A stretch of DNA of 64,000 nt, taken from positions 1-64,000 of the forward strand of contig JABJEK010000038.1 of assembly GCA_018702955.1 (NCBI GenBank). The letters run 5' to 3'. Shown here piece after piece: positions 8,909-16,804 of the stretch. The first letter of the stretch is position 1; the number at the start of each line of letters is the position of its first letter. The DNA comes from Rhodospirillaceae bacterium (GTDB lineage Bacteria > Pseudomonadota > Alphaproteobacteria > UBA6615). The notes under the pieces are model-generated. The model did not search any database. It had not been told where the DNA came from and saw nothing but the letters and a program-made list of their open reading frames with translations. Both the position numbers and the translations under genes were made by a program.

Positions 8909-9994
8909 ATGCAATTCTCATCTCAAATAGTCCGTACTGCCCTTTTCGCGGGCACAGTCACCTTCGGCATGGCCACTTTTCAGGCACCTTCCGTAGCAGA
9001 CAGCTTTACGATGCGGATCGCCGCCGGCCATCCGGCAGCGCCGCTGTCACAAGTCAATCAGCTGCAGAAAACATTCGTCCCGAACGTGACCAAGCGCGTC
9101 GCTGCCGAGACCGAGCACAAGATCAGATTCATCGAAGGGTATGGCGGGACCATCGCCAATCTGTTCGAAGTGCTGGAATCCACCCAGAAAGGCCTGGTTG
9201 ATTTCGGATCGATGTGTTCGTGCTTCGAGCCGACCAAGCTCTTTGTGCACAACATCAACTACTTTACGCCGTTCGTGTCAGGCGACCCGAAGATCATGGG
9301 ACCGGCGACCCGCCAGCTTCACGACGAATTCGACTATTTCTCGAAGACCTTCGATCGCTACAACCAGACATTCCTCGGCGGTGGTGCCGTCGATGATTAC
9401 GGGTTGGGCACCACCTTCGCATGGTCGAAAATGTCGGACCTGAAGGGCGTCAAGATCGGTGCCGCGGGTCCAAACCTGCCCTGGCTCGACTTCGCCGGCG
9501 CGGCAAAGGTCCAGACCAATCTGAATGAGGTCTATAACGCTCTGCAATCTGGCGTCTATGACGGCATCGTCATCTTCCCCGCTCCCTATTTCGGGTTCAA
9601 GTTCGGCGAAGTCGCCAAGTTCTACACGACCATGGGATGGGGCTCTGTTACGGCCTATCCGCTGGCCGTGAACAAGGACAGCTGGGCCAAACTGCCGGCG
9701 AATGTGAAAAAAATCATTCAGGAAGAAATTCCGGTTTATGAAGCCGCCATCGAGGAAGAAAGCACGATCAAATATGTGACGGCCCTCAAGAAGCTCAAGG
9801 AACAAGGGGTCACTGTGCAGGATCTCGATCCGGCCGTACGGCGGGAAATGGCGCAAGCCATCGAACCGTGGGTCAACCAGAAGGCACAGGAGTATGAAGA
9901 TGCTGGCGTGCCCGGTAAGGCCACGTTCCGCCGGCTGATCGAACTCGCAATCGCCAACGGCGCCAAGCCGGTCCACAAATACACGATCAACTAA
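8909..9994 (+). CDS. dctP: TRAP transporter substrate-binding protein, copy 2
   Basis: 361 residues, the same length as copy 1 and collinear with it from the signal-peptide junction (VADSFTMRIAAGHP) to the C-terminus (NGAKPVHKYTIN). Differences cluster in the C-terminal 100 residues and around residue 150. It has its own Sec signal. An AGGGGGAAATCCC ribosome site precedes the ATG. It is a tandem duplicate sharing one divergently encoded permease pair. The two copies may widen the ligand range. An intrinsic terminator follows its stop. Confidence 0.92.
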   Translation: MQFSSQIVRTALFAGTVTFGMATFQAPSVADSFTMRIAAGHPAAPLSQVNQLQKTFVPNVTKRVAAETEHKIRFIEGYGGTIANLFEVLESTQKGLVDFGSMCSCFEPTKLFVHNINYFTPFVSGDPKIMGPATRQLHDEFDYFSKTFDRYNQTFLGGGAVDDYGLGTTFAWSKMSDLKGVKIGAAGPNLPWLDFAGAAKVQTNLNEVYNALQSGVYDGIVIFPAPYFGFKFGEVAKFYTTMGWGSVTAYPLAVNKDSWAKLPANVKKIIQEEIPVYEAAIEEESTIKYVTALKKLKEQGVTVQDLDPAVRREMAQAIEPWVNQKAQEYEDAGVPGKATFRRLIELAIANGAKPVHKYTIN

Positions 9995-10017
9995 AAGTCG
10001 ATCTCATCGAAAACGGA

Positions 10018-10045
10018 AAGGGCGGCCCAAAGGCCGCCCTTCTCT
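10018..10045. terminator. Bidirectional terminator between second dctP and the HisD-like gene
   Basis: AGGGCGGCC (10019-10027) pairs with GGCCGCCCT (10032-10040) with a four-base loop. The plus-strand tail is TCTCTG; the minus-strand tail is TTTCCGTTTTC. It separates two convergent genes. Confidence 0.8.
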
Positions 10046-10064
10046 GTTCGGCTCGTCGCTGGCT

Positions 10065-11378
10065 CTACTCGGCAGCGTCAGTTGCCCCGATACCGATATT
10101 CCGGCCGGCGTAGCGGCGCAGGCGCAGATCGGCCTGTTCCTTGTGACCCCAGAAGCGCTCAACCTCGCACAGTCGCGAACAATAGTCGCCGACCAGCGCA
10201 CTCGCCTCTTCCGTGACTTGCTGATAGGTGCAGGTCTTCATGAACTTGCCGACCCACAGGCCGCCGGTGTAGCGAGCCGCACCCTTCGTCGGCAGCGTGT
10301 GGTTCGTGCCGATGACCTTGTCGCCATAGGCCACATTGGTCTCGGGCCCGATGAACAGCGCACCGAAGTTGGTCATGTTGTCGAGGAACCAGCGCGGGTC
10401 TTCGGTCAGGATCTCGACATGCTCATAGGCGAGACGGTCCGCCTCGATCCGCATCTCCTCGCGGTCGCCGCACAGGATGATCTGGCCGTAATCGCGCCAC
10501 GCCACGGACGCCACGTCCGCCGTCGGCAATATCTTCAACTGGCGCTCGATCTCCGCCGGAATGGCCTCGGCCAGTTCCCGCGACGTCGTGATCACGGCCG
10601 CCGGTGAGTTCGGGCCGTGTTCGGCCTGACCGAGCAGATCGACCACCACCATTTCGACGTCGGCGGTGTCGTCGGCAATCACGAGCACTTCCGTGGGGCC
10701 GGCAAACAGATCGATCCCCACCTTGCCGTAGAGCTGGCGCTTGGCCTCCGCAACATACGCATTGCCTGGTCCGACCAGCATGTCGCAGGGCGAGATCGTC
10801 TCGGTGCCGATGCCCATCGCCGCCACAGCCTGCACACCACCAAGACAGTAAATCTCATCTGCCCCGGCGAAATGCATCGCCGCGATCGTCGCCGCGTGCG
10901 GGCCACCTTCGTTCGGCGGCGTGCAGGCGATCACCCGCGGCACGCCGGCGACCTTGGCCGTCACGATCGACATATGGGCCGACGCGACCATCGGGTAGCG
11001 GCCGCCCGGCACGTAGCAACCAACGCTGTTCACGGGAATATTCTTGTGGCCCAGGGTCACGCCCGGAAGCGTTTCGACTTCGACATCCTTCATGGAATCA
11101 CGCTGTATCTGCGCGAAGTTGCGGACCTGGGTCTGCGCAAACTTGATGTCCTCAATCGTCTGCTCGGGCAGAGAATCGACGAGTTCCTTCACCTGCGCAT
11201 CGGACAGACGGAAACTGTCGGGCGTCCACTTGTCGAACTTCTCCGACAGCTCGCGCAGGGCCGCGTCGCCGCGGGATTTCACGTCGCCGAGAATCCCCTC
11301 AACAATCCCACGAACCTTGATATCGGCTTCGTCGGTCGCGTCGGCGTCCATCCCCTGCTTCAGGAACTCGATGGCCAT
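10065..11378 (-). CDS. Histidinol dehydrogenase family enzyme, probably catabolic (sulfopropanediol-dehydrogenase-like)
   Basis: 437 residues, the length of HisD. The HisD active site is fully kept: presumed zinc ligands Gln251 and His254 (GQAEHGPNS), Asp353 ([10 protein letters not shown]) and His412 (WGHKEQ), and the base pair Glu319-His320 ([11 protein letters not shown]). The enzyme should oxidise an alcohol in two NAD-dependent steps to an acid. No his genes are near, and the neighbours are a TRAP system and cyclase-type hydrolases. The distinctive [14 protein letters not shown] stretch after the Asp/His site reminds me of HpsN-type dihydroxypropanesulfonate dehydrogenases rather than true HisD, but I cannot verify this by alignment. 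The gene follows the cyclase gene at 11481 on the same strand, with a weak hairpin between. Confidence 0.85.
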
Positions 11379-11424
11379 GTCACTTTTCCTCGTATGGGTG
11401 TGTATTTCGCAGTGTCTTAAAACA

Positions 11425-11458
11425 GAGCGGGCGGCACCGACAACCCCGGCACCGCCCG
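11425..11458 (-). terminator. Weak intergenic hairpin between cyclase and HisD-like genes
   Basis: CGGGCGG (11428-11434) pairs with CCGCCCG (11452-11458), and the stem can be extended imperfectly. On the minus strand it is followed by CTCTGTTTTAAG, a poor U tract. It may attenuate rather than end transcription into the HisD-like gene. Confidence 0.45.
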
Positions 11459-11480
11459 ATCCGAATATTGTCCGCAGATG

Positions 11481-12464
11481 CTACTTGATGGCCTGCGGAT
11501 TGATCGGTGAGCCGACACCCCTGGTGATCGGCAGCGGCGGCGCGACGAACATGAACTCATACACCTTGTCGGCGTCACAGTCGTTCGCCAGGTCCTTGAG
11601 ATAGAATATCTCGCCCATGGTGATGCCGATCTGCGGGATCACGATCCAGTGCCAGGGCTGGAACACATCGTCGGTCTCGTTCGGGATGACTTCGCAGCCC
11701 CAGGTATCGGCGCAGATCGCGGCGATTTCCATGTCGTGCATCCAGTCACAGGTGTGGAAAGACACGCCCGGCGCATCGCCGCCCGCATATCCGCCCCACT
11801 CACCCGCCGCCAGGCAGCGTTCCATATGGCCGGTGCGGTAGATCACGAAGTCGCCGCGCCTGATCTCGACACCCTGCGCCTTGGCGCACGCATCGAGATC
11901 GTCGGCATCGATCGCCGTACCATCTTCCAGAGAATCGACACCGGCCCAACGCGCGATGTCGAGCAGCACACCGCGGCCGACCATCTTATTGCGCATCTTG
12001 TGGATCGCGTTTTTCTCCGCACCGTTGGCCCCGACCAGCGTTGCGTCGTAGCCGTTCCACATCTTGTCGCTATTGAAGACGTGGCCGAGTGCGTCCCACT
12101 GGGTGCCGCATTGCAGCGGCAGCGACACGGCGTCATCGGCGTACTGGCTCGGGTATTTCTTTCCAGGCACCGTTTGTTTGCCCTGAACGGCATCGGTGCC
12201 GGTGGCCAGCATGGTGTGGATCGGGTTCCAGCGGCCGCCGAACAAACCATTCTGAGGGCCGTCACCGTCGAAGTTCAGGCCCAGCGCAAAGACCTCGCCC
12301 CGCTTGACCAACTGGGCTGCCGCCTTGCGCTCCTCATCGCCCACATAGTTGATCGTGCCCCACTCATCGTCGGGCCCCCATTTGCCCCAGTTCTTGTTGC
12401 GCTCGGACTTCTCCTTGATGGTGTCCATGTCCATCTGGAATTTCGGATCGTCGTAACGATGCAT
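11481..12464 (-). CDS. Cyclase family metal-dependent hydrolase (PF04199-like), copy 1
   Basis: 327 residues of the cyclase/kynurenine-formamidase/isatin-hydrolase fold. These enzymes open amide or lactone-type bonds with Mn or Zn. The canonical metal motif HxGTHxDxxxH appears here as Gln118-x-Gly-Thr-Gln122-x-Asp124-xxx-His128 (LQCGTQWDALGHVF), so two His ligands are glutamine. A second typical block is GDFVIYRTGHMERC. No signal peptide, so cytoplasmic. It is paralogous to the next gene upstream (12599) over nearly the whole length. The ribosome site is GGGGGAGACC. The substrate is unknown; cyclisable amides or lactones are likely. Confidence 0.88.
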   Translation of the reverse strand: MHRYDDPKFQMDMDTIKEKSERNKNWGKWGPDDEWGTINYVGDEERKAAAQLVKRGEVFALGLNFDGDGPQNGLFGGRWNPIHTMLATGTDAVQGKQTVPGKKYPSQYADDAVSLPLQCGTQWDALGHVFNSDKMWNGYDATLVGANGAEKNAIHKMRNKMVGRGVLLDIARWAGVDSLEDGTAIDADDLDACAKAQGVEIRRGDFVIYRTGHMERCLAAGEWGGYAGGDAPGVSFHTCDWMHDMEIAAICADTWGCEVIPNETDDVFQPWHWIVIPQIGITMGEIFYLKDLANDCDADKVYEFMFVAPPLPITRGVGSPINPQAIK

Positions 12465-12543
12465 CTCAGGTCTCCCCCGTAAATCTCGGTTGCGCCCGCC
12501 TCGTGCGGGCGGATTTTATTATAATGGAACTATAGCAAAACAA

Positions 12544-12574
12544 AGGGGCCACGCTCCAATGGAACGTGACCCCT
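12544..12574 (-). terminator. Intrinsic terminator after the second cyclase gene
   Basis: A 10-bp stem with one mismatch (12544-12553 with 12565-12574: AGGGGCCACG and CGTGACCCCT) extended by TCC/GGA. The minus-strand tail is TTTGTTTT. It would end transcription of the gene at 12599 before the cyclase at 11481. Confidence 0.75.
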
Positions 12575-12598
12575 AAAACTGCATAACTGCCGTCAAAT

Positions 12599-13633
12599 TT
12601 ACTTGATGGCCTGCGGGTTGATCGGTGAACCCGTGCCGCGGGTGATCACCAGCGGCGGGGCGCAGAGGAAGAACTCATAGACGCCGTCCTCGGCGCAGTC
12701 TTCAACCAGCTCGCGCAGATACCAGATCTCGCCGTGAACGATGCCGATATGCGGGATCGTTACCCAATGCCAGGGCTGATTGAGACCCGGGACACTCTTG
12801 TTGGGGCGCACTTCGATGCCCCAGGTGTCCGAGCAGATGCCGGAGATCTGTTTCTCGTGGATCCAGTCAACGGTCTCGAAACCAAGGCCCGGCGCGTCGC
12901 CGCCGCCGTAACCGCCCCATTCGCCCTTATCCAGGCAATCCGCCATCTGGCCGGTGTTGAAGATCACGAAGTCACCGCGGCGCACTTCGACGCCCTGCTT
13001 CTTCGCAGTGGCTTCGAGGTCCTTGATGGTGATCTCATAGCCGTCCGCGAGGCGTTTCTTTCCCTTGTAGCGGGCGACGTCGAGCAACACGCCACGACCG
13101 ACCATCTTGTCGGCAAATTTCTCGATGCCGTTCTTGTGGGCGCCACGCACGTCGACGAGCGTCGCGTCATAGCCGTTCCACATCTTGTCGTCGGTGAAGA
13201 CATGGGAGAGCGCGTCCCACTGGGTCGCGGCCTGGGTCGGCAGATTGATGGCATCATCGGCGTAACGCATGCCGGCGAGCGGCTCCTGAATGCCCTGGAC
13301 CGCATCCGTGCCGGTGGCGAGCATCTGATGCATCGGGTTCCAGCGGCCGCCGAACAACCCGTTCTGCGGGCCGTTCTCGTCAAGGTTCAGACCGAGGCGG
13401 AACACCTTGCCCTTCTGAATCAGCTTGGCGGCGTTGGCGATGTCTTCCGGGGTGATGTAGTTGAGAACACCGAGCTCGTCGTTCTTGCCCCACTTGCCCC
13501 AGTTGCTCAGCTCCTTGCACTTGCGCATCACGTCCGCTTTGGTGAGCAGCTTCTTGCCCTTGCGGGCCGCGCTCTTTTTCGCGGCTGGTTTCTTTTTAGC
13601 GGCTGGTTTGCGTGCAGTTGCTTTCTTGGCCAT
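12599..13633 (-). CDS. Cyclase family metal-dependent hydrolase, copy 2, with lysine-rich histone-H1-like N-terminal tail
   Basis: 344 residues. Residues 1-28 contain 11 lysines and 2 arginines among Ala and Pro (KKATARKPAAKKK), resembling bacterial histone-H1-like tails. Residues from about 40 onward align with copy 1. The metal motif is Gln134-AAT-Gln138-x-Asp140-xxx-His144 (TQAATQWDALSHVF), again with Gln for the usual His. GRGVLLDVAR and GDFVIFNTGQMADC are shared blocks. The ATG at 13633 is followed directly by the basic tail, and an AAGGACAT site precedes it; an internal start would lie at Met36 (13528), so the tail depends on the first ATG being used. Same likely chemistry as copy 1. 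Confidence 0.87.
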   Translation of the reverse strand: MAKKATARKPAAKKKPAAKKSAARKGKKLLTKADVMRKCKELSNWGKWGKNDELGVLNYITPEDIANAAKLIQKGKVFRLGLNLDENGPQNGLFGGRWNPMHQMLATGTDAVQGIQEPLAGMRYADDAINLPTQAATQWDALSHVFTDDKMWNGYDATLVDVRGAHKNGIEKFADKMVGRGVLLDVARYKGKKRLADGYEITIKDLEATAKKQGVEVRRGDFVIFNTGQMADCLDKGEWGGYGGGDAPGLGFETVDWIHEKQISGICSDTWGIEVRPNKSVPGLNQPWHWVTIPHIGIVHGEIWYLRELVEDCAEDGVYEFFLCAPPLVITRGTGSPINPQAIK

Positions 13634-13781
13634 GTCCTTGCCTCGCCTTTGTCTAATCTCAAAATTGATCTGCTTTGCCGGTCTTACGTCCGGCTTCGGG
13701 CTCGGTTATGGTCGCACCAAAATCGGATTGCAAGCATGCAATCCGCCGGGTTTGACCACATTGTGACAGGGAAAGAACGAG

Positions 13782-14561
13782 ATGAGCGCTGTTGAAGCAG
13801 AAGACAATAAATCACCATCGCTACGACTTGATGGTCTGGTTGCCGTGGTCTCCGGCGCTGGTCGTGGCCTGGGGCGTGGCATCGCGCTGGCGCTCGCCGA
13901 CGCCGGGGCCGAACTCGTGCTGGTCAGCCGCACCCAGAGCGATCTCGACGAGGTTGCCGAACGCATCACCGAGGCCGGCGGCACCGCGCGCACTGTTGTA
14001 TGCGACGTGACCGATGCCGCACAGGTAACCGAACGAATCGAGAGCCTCGAGCGGATCGACATCCTGATGAACAACGCGGGTGCCAACATCCCCGAACCGT
14101 TCGTCGATGTGACCGAGGAGCATCTCGACTTCCTCCTCAACATCAACGTGAAGTCCATGTTCCTGGTGGCCCAGGCGGCCGCACGGCGCATGCTCGCGAA
14201 TGGCCGCGGTGGCTCGATCATTCACATGTCGTCACAGATGGGACATGTCGGATCGCCCAACCGCACCAACTATTGCGCAACCAAACATGCCGTCGAAGGC
14301 ATGAGCAAGGCGATTGCGGCCGAGCTCGCACCCCAGAACATCCGCAGCAATTGCATCGGCCCGACCTTCATCGAGACACCGATGACGAAGCCGATGTTCG
14401 AGAATCCGGAATTCAGGGAGTTCGTGATGGACCGCATCCTGATGGGGCGGCTCGGCAAGATATCCGACGTCACGGGGTCCGTCATATTCCTCGCCTCGCC
14501 CGCCTCGGAGTTGATCACCGGCGCCAGCTTAACCATTGATGGCGGCTGGACCGTGGTCTAA
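13782..14561 (+). CDS. SDR family NAD(P)-dependent oxidoreductase
   Basis: 259 residues of a classical short-chain dehydrogenase. The cofactor motif is SGAGRGLGRGIA (about 25-36), NNAG is present, and the catalytic residues are the Ser in HMSSQMG and Tyr-xxx-Lys in NYCATK. The C-terminus GASLTIDGGWTVV is typical of FabG-like members. Residues 1-16 are an extra acidic lead. GGGAAAGAACGAG precedes the ATG. The gene starts a plus-strand group with the deiodinase-like gene. It is divergent from the lysine-tailed cyclase. The substrate cannot be told from sequence. Confidence 0.9.
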   Translation: MSAVEAEDNKSPSLRLDGLVAVVSGAGRGLGRGIALALADAGAELVLVSRTQSDLDEVAERITEAGGTARTVVCDVTDAAQVTERIESLERIDILMNNAGANIPEPFVDVTEEHLDFLLNINVKSMFLVAQAAARRMLANGRGGSIIHMSSQMGHVGSPNRTNYCATKHAVEGMSKAIAAELAPQNIRSNCIGPTFIETPMTKPMFENPEFREFVMDRILMGRLGKISDVTGSVIFLASPASELITGASLTIDGGWTVV

Positions 14562-14702
14562 AGTCCGGCTTTCAGCCAGAAAGCCGCATTGTTGTGCACG
14601 TTTTCACGCTTCTGTTGCTACCGAACCGGCCCTTTATGCTGTAATATTCGCGCAACCCAATGACTTGGACTTCCCGATGAAGTCCCCAAGGAGAGCGAAC
14701 CG

Positions 14703-15428
14703 ATGGGCGCACCCGCACGCGACGACACATACAATTACTCGCGCTTTAAGATGAGCAATTACGAGCTCGGCTACTTCCCCGGCCCGAAGGCCGGCGAAGA
14801 GGTGAACTTCGACTACACGTTGACGGACCTCGACGGAAACGAGGTCAAGCTTGCCGACTACAAGGGCAAGTGGCTCGTCATCGAGTCCGGCAGCCTCACC
14901 TGCCCGATGTACGTCAAGAACGTGAAGCCATATGCCAAGCTGAAGGAAAAATATCCCGACGTTGAATGGTTGGTCGTCTATGTCCGTGAAGCGCATCCGG
15001 GCGAGAAAGCCAAGCAGGCGGTCTCGATGGACGAGAAGATCGAATACGCCAAGCGCAACCGCGACGACTACAAGGAAGAGCGCAAGATCATCGTCGATGA
15101 CGTTGCCGGAAAATGGCATCACGAGTGGGGCCTTCTGCCCAACACCGTGTATGTGATTAATCCCGACGGACAAGTCATCTACCGCGCCGACTGGTCATTC
15201 GCGCATCTCGTTGAGCGCGCGCTGGAAAACCGCGACACGATCAACACCAACGAGCATGTCGCGATCATCGGCGCAGCCCCCTGGATCACCATTCCCGTGA
15301 CCCTCAAAGGCGGTTGGGTAGCGCTCTATGACATCCTGATCATCTTCCCCAAGGTCTATTACATGCATTTCAAGCTGGATATTCAGACCTGGTGGGCAAA
15401 GCGCAAGGCACGCAAACAGGCCGCATAA
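14703..15428 (+). CDS. Thioredoxin-fold redoxin related to iodothyronine deiodinases (cysteine form)
   Basis: 241 residues with no signal peptide. A single catalytic-type cysteine, Cys67, lies in ESGSLTCPMYVKNV, where vertebrate deiodinases have GSCT-Sec-PPF. Downstream, WLVVYVREAHPG (90-100) matches the deiodinase hallmark LVYIxEAHPSDGW, and NTVYVINPDGQVIYRADWS matches the last strands of the fold. A C-terminal segment (about 195-225) is hydrophobic and could contact the membrane. A second resolving Cys in a CxxC is absent. It could be a peroxiredoxin-like reductase or a dehalogenase; function not established. AAGGAGAGCG precedes the ATG and a strong terminator follows the stop. Confidence 0.8.
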   Translation: MGAPARDDTYNYSRFKMSNYELGYFPGPKAGEEVNFDYTLTDLDGNEVKLADYKGKWLVIESGSLTCPMYVKNVKPYAKLKEKYPDVEWLVVYVREAHPGEKAKQAVSMDEKIEYAKRNRDDYKEERKIIVDDVAGKWHHEWGLLPNTVYVINPDGQVIYRADWSFAHLVERALENRDTINTNEHVAIIGAAPWITIPVTLKGGWVALYDILIIFPKVYYMHFKLDIQTWWAKRKARKQAA

Positions 15429-15457
15429 GCCGACGCAAACACTGCCTCCGAGTTCAG

Positions 15458-15498
15458 AAAGGCCGGGCGCCCCCAATGCGGGCCCCGGCCTTTTTTTA
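15458..15498 (+). terminator. Strong intrinsic terminator after the deiodinase-like gene
   Basis: AAAGGCCGGG (15458-15467) pairs with CCCGGCCTTT (15484-15493), followed by a run of T. It lies between convergent genes. Confidence 0.9.
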
Positions 15499-15499
15499 T

Positions 15500-16804
15500 T
15501 CAAGTAATCAGAATTGCCCGGAAATCATTCACATTGGTGCGGGTCGGTCCTGTGACCACCAGATCATCAATCGCCGAAAACAGGCCGTAGGCGTCATTTC
15601 GCGCCAATGTCTCAGCGGCCTCGAAACCCACTGCACACGCCCGGTCGAGCGTGTCCGGCGTGACCAGCACCCCGGCGTTGTCCTCCACGCCATCGATGCC
15701 GTCCGTGTCGCACGCGATCGCATGAATTCCCGTCGCACCCGAAAGCGCGTGTGCGAGCCCGAGCGCATACTCGGCATTACGCCCGCCGCGGCCGTCGCCG
15801 GTCACGGTCACGGTCGTCTCGCCCCCCGACAGGATGACGAGCGGTAACTCCCCGGCGCGTTCCTTCTGAAGCCGGAGTGCTAGCGCCGCGTGCTGCGCGC
15901 CCACGTCCCGCGCCTCACCCTCCAGGTCTGCACCCAACGAAACAACAGCACATCCTGCTTCGTGTGCGGCCATCTCCGTTGCAGCCAGCATGTCGGACGG
16001 CCGCGAGACGATCACATTCTCCACATAGGCGAACAGCGGATCGTCGGGTTTCGGCGTCTCCCCGGCCGGACTGTTCAACAAGGTTGTTACCGAGGCCGGC
16101 GCGTCGATACGATATCGCGTCAGAATCTCGAGCGCCTCATGGCGTGTGGTCGGATCAGGAACCGTCGGCCCCGAGGCGATGACCGAAGGATCGTCGCCGG
16201 GAACATCCGAGATCATCAAACTAAGCACGCGCGCCGGTGCTGCGCTGCGGGCGAGACGACCACCCTTTATCGCGGAGATGTGCTTGCGCACGCAGTTCAT
16301 CTCGCCGATCGGGGCACCGCTGCGCAGTAACGCACGGGTCACGGCGGCCTTCTCATCCGCGCTGATGCCATCGGCCGGTGCCGCGAGGAGCGCCGATCCG
16401 CCGCCGGAAATCAGGCAGAGCAGCAGGTCGTCCGACGTGAGACCCGAGGCCAATGCCTGAATACGTCGTGCCGCATCCGCACCGGCCGCGTCCGGCACCG
16501 GGTGCGCCGCCTCGATGATTTCAATGCTGTCACAGTCGGCACCATGCCCGTAGCGGGTCACCACCAGCCCTTCCAGGCGGTCGCGCCATCCTTGCTTATC
16601 CGCCTGGCGCTCGACGGCCAGCGCCATGGCTGCCGACGCCTTGCCCGCACCGACGACGACGATACGACCGGTCACAGCGGGGGACGGAAGCGATGGTGGC
16701 ACGCACGTCATCGGATCTGCTGCGGCAACCGCCGACGAAAACAAGCCGCGCAGAAACTCCGGCGCGAGGATTGTCCCTGCATCATTTGTTATGGATTTGC
16801 TCAC
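15500..16804 (-). CDS. Glycerate 2-kinase (type II, MOFRL family)
   Basis: 434 residues with the N-terminal DUF4147 domain (VVVGAGKASAAMA near 47-59; SGGGSALLAAP near 135) and the C-terminal MOFRL domain (LSGGETTVTVTGDGRGGRN). It phosphorylates D-glycerate to 2-phosphoglycerate with ATP, linking glyoxylate, tartronate, serine-cycle or hydroxypyruvate routes to glycolysis. The start is GTG at 16804 with AAGGGG upstream; the overlapping ATG is out of frame. It stands alone on the minus strand. A tartronate-semialdehyde reductase partner is not adjacent, although beta-hydroxyacid dehydrogenase genes occur at 18676 and 63710. Confidence 0.92.
   Translation of the reverse strand: MSKSITNDAGTILAPEFLRGLFSSAVAAADPMTCVPPSLPSPAVTGRIVVVGAGKASAAMALAVERQADKQGWRDRLEGLVVTRYGHGADCDSIEIIEAAHPVPDAAGADAARRIQALASGLTSDDLLLCLISGGGSALLAAPADGISADEKAAVTRALLRSGAPIGEMNCVRKHISAIKGGRLARSAAPARVLSLMISDVPGDDPSVIASGPTVPDPTTRHEALEILTRYRIDAPASVTTLLNSPAGETPKPDDPLFAYVENVIVSRPSDMLAATEMAAHEAGCAVVSLGADLEGEARDVGAQHAALALRLQKERAGELPLVILSGGETTVTVTGDGRGGRNAEYALGLAHALSGATGIHAIACDTDGIDGVEDNAGVLVTPDTLDRACAVGFEAAETLARNDAYGLFSAIDDLVVTGPTRTNVNDFRAILIT

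Follow-up and report, generated by a model that had tools for sequence, protein, structure and literature searches.

The window, a 64,000-nucleotide stretch of a contig from a Rhodospirillaceae bacterium, carries on its forward strand, at positions 14703–15428, an open reading frame of 241 codons, the product of which has a single cysteine, C67 (TGC codon at 14901–14903). An AAGGAG ribosome-binding site, read from the sequence, lies on the same strand at 14688–14693, 9 nt upstream of the ATG. Downstream, a GC-rich hairpin followed by a T run (15456–15495, forward strand) is a likely intrinsic terminator; the region 15448–15508 folds with −33.4 kcal/mol (z −5.5), the convergent gene at 15500–16804 ends next to this structure, and a consensus terminator scanner did not list it. 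Scanning of 14500–15560 found no sigma-70-like promoter, and the hairpin that follows the upstream SDR gene (14566–14586) corresponds to shuffle expectation (one found against a mean of 1.2). The coding sequence is supported by the reading frame, by the Pfam match described below, by relatives at 25 loci and by codon-based dN/dS values of 0.050, 0.042 and 0.045 against the orthologues L003, L004 and L010, respectively. Ratios of 0.04–0.05 indicate a real protein gene under strong purifying selection. Further upstream, the stretch 8909–14561 encodes a TRAP substrate-binding protein, a histidinol-dehydrogenase-family protein, two cyclase-family proteins and the SDR, a block conserved in close relatives and with the look of a catabolic cluster.

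Two segments of the protein, GSLTCP (residues 63–68) and VYVREAHPG (residues 92–100), had been taken in a sequence-only reading as hallmarks of iodothyronine deiodinases, the textbook selenoenzymes of thyroid biology. Both are present, and the Pfam model T4_deiodinase (PF00837) matched the protein at 35.1 bits (E 1.1e-8, cut-off 27), outscoring AhpC-TSA, which was also above its cut-off (28.8 bits against 26); Redoxin (22.8 bits) fell under its cut-off of 26.6. Among 26 aligned rows of relatives, matches at E ≤ 0.001 were found for T4_deiodinase in all 26, the window protein included, for AhpC-TSA in 23, for Redoxin in 21 and for GSHPx in 11, the window protein not being one of these 11. Glutathione peroxidases are characterised by a Cys/Sec-Gln-Trp-Asn tetrad. 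The best NCBIfam match was NF038285 (deiodinase_rel) over residues 21–162, at 58.9 bits and so below the cut-off of 250; this model has 347 positions. A search of the PDB with the 26-row profile placed DIO3 (51.3 bits, 8.4e-13) and DIO2 (43.5 bits, 2.1e-10) at the top, the next match being a glutathione peroxidase (27.7 bits, 1.4e-5). The outcome that would have spoken against the sequence-only reading, a better match to AhpC/TSA or SCO proteins with no deiodinase features, did not occur.

DIO2 and DIO3 also lead the structural matches of both predicted models of the protein. The first model, built from 26 rows of the short-loop group defined below (pLDDT 78), superposed best on DIO2 (Z 16.5, rmsd 2.6, 154 residues aligned) and then on DIO3 (15.7, 3.6, 154), the latter tied with a putative disulfide isomerase (15.4, 2.2, 143) that stood 1.1 below DIO2. 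The second model, built from 43 rows, 8 of them long-loop (pLDDT 89 overall), gave DIO2 (9h48) as the top match with a Z of 16.5 (rmsd 2.4, 155 aligned), then DIO3 (4tr3) at 15.4 (3.5, 154) and ResA 1.0 lower at 14.4 (1.7, 130); because long-loop rows were used, this model may lean towards the deiodinases. The Pfam score, together with the GSxT[U/C] and Tyr-x-x-Glu-Ala-His residues described next, places the protein in the deiodinase family broadly defined (PF00837).

According to passages of PMC11592359 and PMC7506546, Sec170 of DIO3 is surrounded by a catalytic and hydrogen-bonding network of Ser167, Thr169, Tyr197, Glu200, His202 and His219, and the hormone pocket of DIO2 and DIO3 involves the DGW loop, Trp207, Phe258 and Arg275. 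The aligned DIO stretches stop short of the substrate clamp, which is Arg275 in DIO3 and Lys241 in DIO2. Six of the seven published network positions are kept in the window protein (S64, T66, C67 for Sec, Y93, E96 and H98). C67 aligns with Sec170 of DIO3, a residue that is Cys in the mutants used for crystallisation, and the Y93-V-R-E-A-H-P-G100 hallmark (14979–15002, forward strand) provides, by alignment, the equivalents of Tyr197, Glu200 and His202. The seventh position, His219 in DIO3, is Ala106 in this sublineage; counted by eye, it is occupied in the short-loop rows by His (17 of 32), Ala (14 of 32, window included) or Pro (1 of 32). Phe258 of DIO3 corresponds to P146. This cis-Pro site holds Pro in 32 of 32 short-loop and 16 of 16 bacterial long-loop rows, and Phe in both DIO rows. 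C67, E96, A97, H98 and P99 are invariant in the 26 aligned rows, and in a set of 35 short-loop and 8 long-loop rows (43 in all) the same holds for S64, T66, C67, Y93, E96, A97, H98, D132 and P146; T66 is replaced by Ser in three long-loop proteins (L087, L088 and L090), all outside the 43-row set.

For the comparison of relatives, 38 of 58 loci entered the extraction and 20 did not; L029, L046 and L093 were dropped for want of a motif match, although L029 scores 93 bits. Near relatives, picked by eye, were omitted from the tree (9 of 27 first-set and 5 of 35 second-set rows). The unrooted tree comprises 50 rows, namely 32 of group B (short-loop, the window protein included), 16 bacterial rows of group A (long-loop) and the mouse enzymes DIO2 and DIO3. 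The branch splitting B from A, DIO2 and DIO3 has a support of 100/97, and the mouse enzymes group with the long-loop bacterial rows, not with B; group A without the DIO rows is weak (86/26). Among the long branches for which the program gave a warning of mutual joining are L043, L027, L028 and DIO2. The B split was kept, with an SH-aLRT of 95, in a quick second tree of 43 rows, from which 7 long or distant rows of the 50 had been removed.

The spacing between H98 and K112 is 13 in all 32 B rows, as opposed to 25–33 in all 16 A rows, 22 in mouse DIO3 and 25 in mouse DIO2. In the window protein it corresponds to residues 99–111 (14997–15035, forward strand), at the site of the deiodinase DGW Omega-loop; the loop starts with PGEK, and the Omega-loop (D-insertion) is missing. 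E61, R95, G100, R127, H139 and W164 are specific to B, each invariant in 32 of 32 rows. The C-terminal tail is also longer in B (68–116 residues against 35–46 in A, the fused protein L033 excepted), and 28 of the 32 B rows carry a GG..AL.D-type C-terminal motif, the exceptions being L021 (AGWIAVWD instead), L043, L044 and L045. The end of this extension, missing from the long-loop group, is predicted in the window protein to form a long helix (residues 205–240; 15315–15422, forward strand; pLDDT of 71–94 per ten-residue block in the second model), which may hold a partner or membrane surface. The best 19-residue Kyte–Doolittle mean of the tail is 1.56 (1.14–1.79 in relatives), the usual transmembrane line being 1.6. 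By eye, no hydrophobic stretch of the kind that anchors deiodinases at the N terminus is present in the first 35 residues, and the protein, judged in the same way, is probably cytosolic.

The window protein thus shares with DIO2 and DIO3 (PF00837; 9h48 and 4tr3) the thioredoxin fold, the GSxT[U/C]P site and the Tyr-x-x-Glu-Ala-His network, but differs from them in having no DGW Omega-loop and no His219 equivalent, Pro for Phe at the cis-Pro site, Cys for Sec, a C-terminal extension and a separate branch. As far as alignment and tree can tell, it falls outside the deiodinases proper and belongs to the short-loop lineage. The sequence-only description of a deiodinase relative with Cys for Sec therefore holds for the relationship and for the Cys at the Sec position, but a place on the deiodinase branch proper is contradicted by the missing loop, cis-site Phe and His219 equivalent and by the grouping of the mouse enzymes with other bacteria.

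PF00837 was matched at E ≤ 0.001 in 20 of 385 Alphaproteobacteria genomes sampled, in 10 of 398 genomes sampled from the phylum (a sample overlapping that of the class) and in 20 of 24 genomes of the window's own family. Of the 35 proteins extracted, 14 have an in-frame TGA as the catalytic codon, 12 of them in A (where 12 of 16 rows are Sec-coding) and two in B. The latter, L044 and L045, are the only Sec rows among the extracted relatives to have the window protein's short loop, and read GSFTUPYC, that is, UxxC. The long-loop Sec rows, unlike the window protein, read UPPF and mostly have EAHPxDGW-like loops. The motif of the deiodinase-like selenoprotein is given as UxxC in the available text of two reviews (PMC13188914 and PMC9312934); here, the 12 long-loop Sec rows (L030–L038 and L048–L050) read UPPF, and UPYC was seen only in the short-loop L044 and L045.

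Of 25 genomes searched for SelB, 21 gave a score above cut-off (2 of 14 in the control panel), among them every one of the 11 that have TGA forms and each of the 10 examined from the window's family; the copies extracted from genomes of this family carry Cys, despite SelB in all 10. No TGA form was found in the four genomes with SelB under cut-off (G154, G252, G294 and G086), of which G154 and G086 gave no motif match in the extraction. A tRNA-Sec was above cut-off in 13 of 15 genomes (5 of 14 controls), just above it (49 bits) in G294 and G086, both of which are without selB above cut-off. The window's own genome has selB above cut-off with a selA-like ORF adjoining it (by eye) and, on the same contig, a tRNA-Sec of 71 bits; ARAGORN found no tRNA on the selB stretch (L078), outside which this tRNA-Sec lies. 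Cys was therefore not forced by missing machinery, and its origin through host loss of the selenium machinery is ruled out by selB, the selA-like ORF and the 71-bit tRNA-Sec. Both copies of the protein keep Cys in a host with genes for Sec incorporation. The earlier wording 'Cys in place of Sec' is correct as to the residue at the Sec site, but the direction of change that it implies is not shown by the tree, which is unrooted and does not order the Cys and Sec states.

The position of the long-loop Sec genes relative to the selenium machinery varies. At L079, L080, L081 and L082, from 4 of the 11 genomes with TGA forms, selB, a selA-like ORF (by eye) and tRNA-Sec are all found no more than about 3.5 kb from such a gene, as if the deiodinase-like gene belonged to a sel locus. 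In G194 and G287 about 13 kb of a shared contig separates the Sec gene from selB, and in the other 5 genomes the two are on different contigs.

The second copy in the window's own genome (L001) is on a different contig, is 41% identical and has an extra Cys in YRCNW; YRC[DN]W or a near form occurs in 11 of the 32 B rows, and the C-terminal motif is common to both paralogues. In several genomes the second copy adjoins an alpha/beta hydrolase gene and an ORF taken for a transporter by eye. As to the copy in the window, close relatives have kept synteny for the upstream SDR, the cyclase-like pair, HisD, the TRAP genes and an ammonium transporter/P-II pair. We rejected an operon partner among the SDR, cyclase, HisD and TRAP genes because of intervening genes after the SDR in several loci (for example L006, L013 and L015). 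The available DNA of L011, L014, L018–L021, L023–L025 and L027, several of which are short contigs, did not show the block of HisD, both cyclases and the syntenic SDR; lone distant SDR, HIBADH or DctP matches occur at loci without the block. An HIBADH-like neighbour, from a common dehydrogenase family, is repeated in L024, L025, L044 and L045. Among the loci compared, no neighbour was recurrent enough to name a pathway. An anti-phage role was discarded, PADLOC giving no match. In Bacteriovorax (L027:5553–7612), the short-loop gene overlaps both an upstream gene for a MarR-family regulator and a downstream gene for a PF03601 (Cons_hypoth698) protein, which suggests translational coupling.

We propose that the window protein would function as a one-cysteine thioredoxin-fold thiol enzyme of a short-loop lineage that stands beside the iodothyronine deiodinases. 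The S64/T66/Y93/E96/H98 network would hold C67 as a reactive thiolate and relay a proton, and C67 could attack a soft electrophile (a hydroperoxide, a sulfenyl or disulfide sulphur, or a polarised halogen), forming a sulfenyl-type adduct that an outside low-molecular thiol, plausibly glutathione, would resolve. In DIO1, as the available text of PMC9141512 describes, the active residue bonds Cys124 at −2 and glutathione then reduces the product. The −2 position is L65 in the window protein, and the residues from C67 on are C-P-M-Y, so that there is no CxxC, as had been read from the sequence; with L65 at −2 and no other Cys, an outside thiol, which the sequence-only reading also held probable, would be needed for the C67 adduct. 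The window's own genome has a gene (307 bits) of the GCS2 family, to which glutamate-cysteine ligases belong, and this makes glutathione plausible in this role. The missing hormone loop together with the cis-Pro makes a hormone-like substrate unlikely. We lean towards a 1-Cys thiol enzyme catalysing peroxide or other thiol-dependent reduction, with regeneration by an outside thiol, over thyroid-hormone-type deiodination, and rank peroxide or related thiol reduction before small-molecule dehalogenation. Against this proposal stand I60 at the Pro place of PxxxTxxC, a neighbourhood with no widely conserved gene for peroxide stress, Ala106 at the His219 site, the Ser for T66 of L087, L088 and L090, and the small margin of DIO3 over other thiol proteins in the fold comparison (a tie in the first model).

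The same matches could come from an ordinary AhpC/TSA peroxiredoxin, TlpA/ResA or SCO protein with a chance likeness to deiodinases. The window protein has in common with the one-Cys AhpC/TSA peroxiredoxins (PF00578) the thioredoxin fold, a single reactive Cys, the cis-Pro and a Pfam match above cut-off (28.8 against 26 bits, with 23 of 26 rows matching), and thiol-disulfide oxidoreductase structures are close behind DIO in fold. We nevertheless regard this explanation as very improbable, as deiodinase models or chains come top in Pfam, in NCBIfam (there under cut-off) and in the PDB, and as the EAH and S-x-T-C residues do not vary across the 43 rows drawn from the two lineages. The peroxiredoxin active-site motif PxxxTxxC is incomplete, I60-E-S-G-S64-L-T-C67 having Ser at −3 but lacking the Pro expected at −7 (all 32 B rows carry I, V, L or M at position 60), and the EAH network is a further difference from these enzymes. 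SCO proteins are marked by CxxxC and TlpA/ResA by CxxC; with one Cys in the whole protein, neither motif is present.

Reductive dehalogenation of a small iodinated or brominated compound, with C67 taking the halogen, E96 and H98 giving the proton and the short loop fitting a smaller substrate, seems to us unlikely. It would account for the retention of the proposed deiodinase proton-relay residues, except His219, and several relatives are, by their record titles, from marine samples (TaraRedSea, MarineAlpha and ALOHA; one title has Baikal), organohalogens being common in the sea. However, the DGW loop and Phe258 of the hormone pocket are missing, no organohalogen-metabolism gene was recognised among the typed neighbours, and replacement of Sec by Cys cuts DIO activity about 1000-fold, according to portions of PMC11592359. 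A thiol partner or transfer protein (for disulfide exchange, S-thiolation, or sulphur or selenium transfer) working with the two-Cys paralogue would fit the second Cys of that paralogue, the C-terminal motif found in both and the UPYC of the same-lineage Sec relatives, but the paralogues are on separate contigs, the window protein has no CxxC and no partner is known, making this quite improbable. A broader and rather doubtful proposal is that the short-loop lineage, with the deiodinase core but not its hormone loop, forms a distinct family for thiol-based removal of halogen or peroxide from a small metabolite, with one-Cys and two-Cys duplicates and with Cys retained despite Sec-capable hosts.

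Cys- and Sec-containing bacterial deiodinase-like proteins were reported from the Sargasso Sea in 2005 (PMC1088965, as far as its accessible text goes); they belong to the same Pfam family in both forms, and short-loop Cys members may already be inside that alignment. The family is listed in portions of a 2022 and a 2026 review (PMC9312934 and PMC13188914), and the absence of an agreed function for bacterial members, stated earlier from the sequence, agrees with the accessible text of PMC1088965 and of PMC13188914, which counts the family among proteins with largely uncharacterised functions. The review PMC10779653, from its available part, concerns mammalian deiodinases. In the openly licensed literature we recognised no description of the short-loop lineage and no activity measured for a bacterial member. 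This lineage separates parts of the deiodinase, in that most of the proposed proton relay is kept and the hormone loop is missing, and the window protein offers a Cys-based protein for asking what the deiodinase core does alone. Its Sec-capable host, with Cys in both copies, is a natural case for studying the choice between Sec and Cys.

At L033:1090–2124, on the reverse strand, a Sec-type deiodinase-like protein is fused to a C-terminal alkyl-sulfatase C-terminal domain (47.8 bits); such domains are sterol-carrier-like, a hint of a lipid-like substrate for this protein. Cys-containing deiodinase-like proteins from another family, f188 (L087, L088 and L090), have an N-terminal part that is hydrophobic by eye and recalls the membrane anchor of animal deiodinases.
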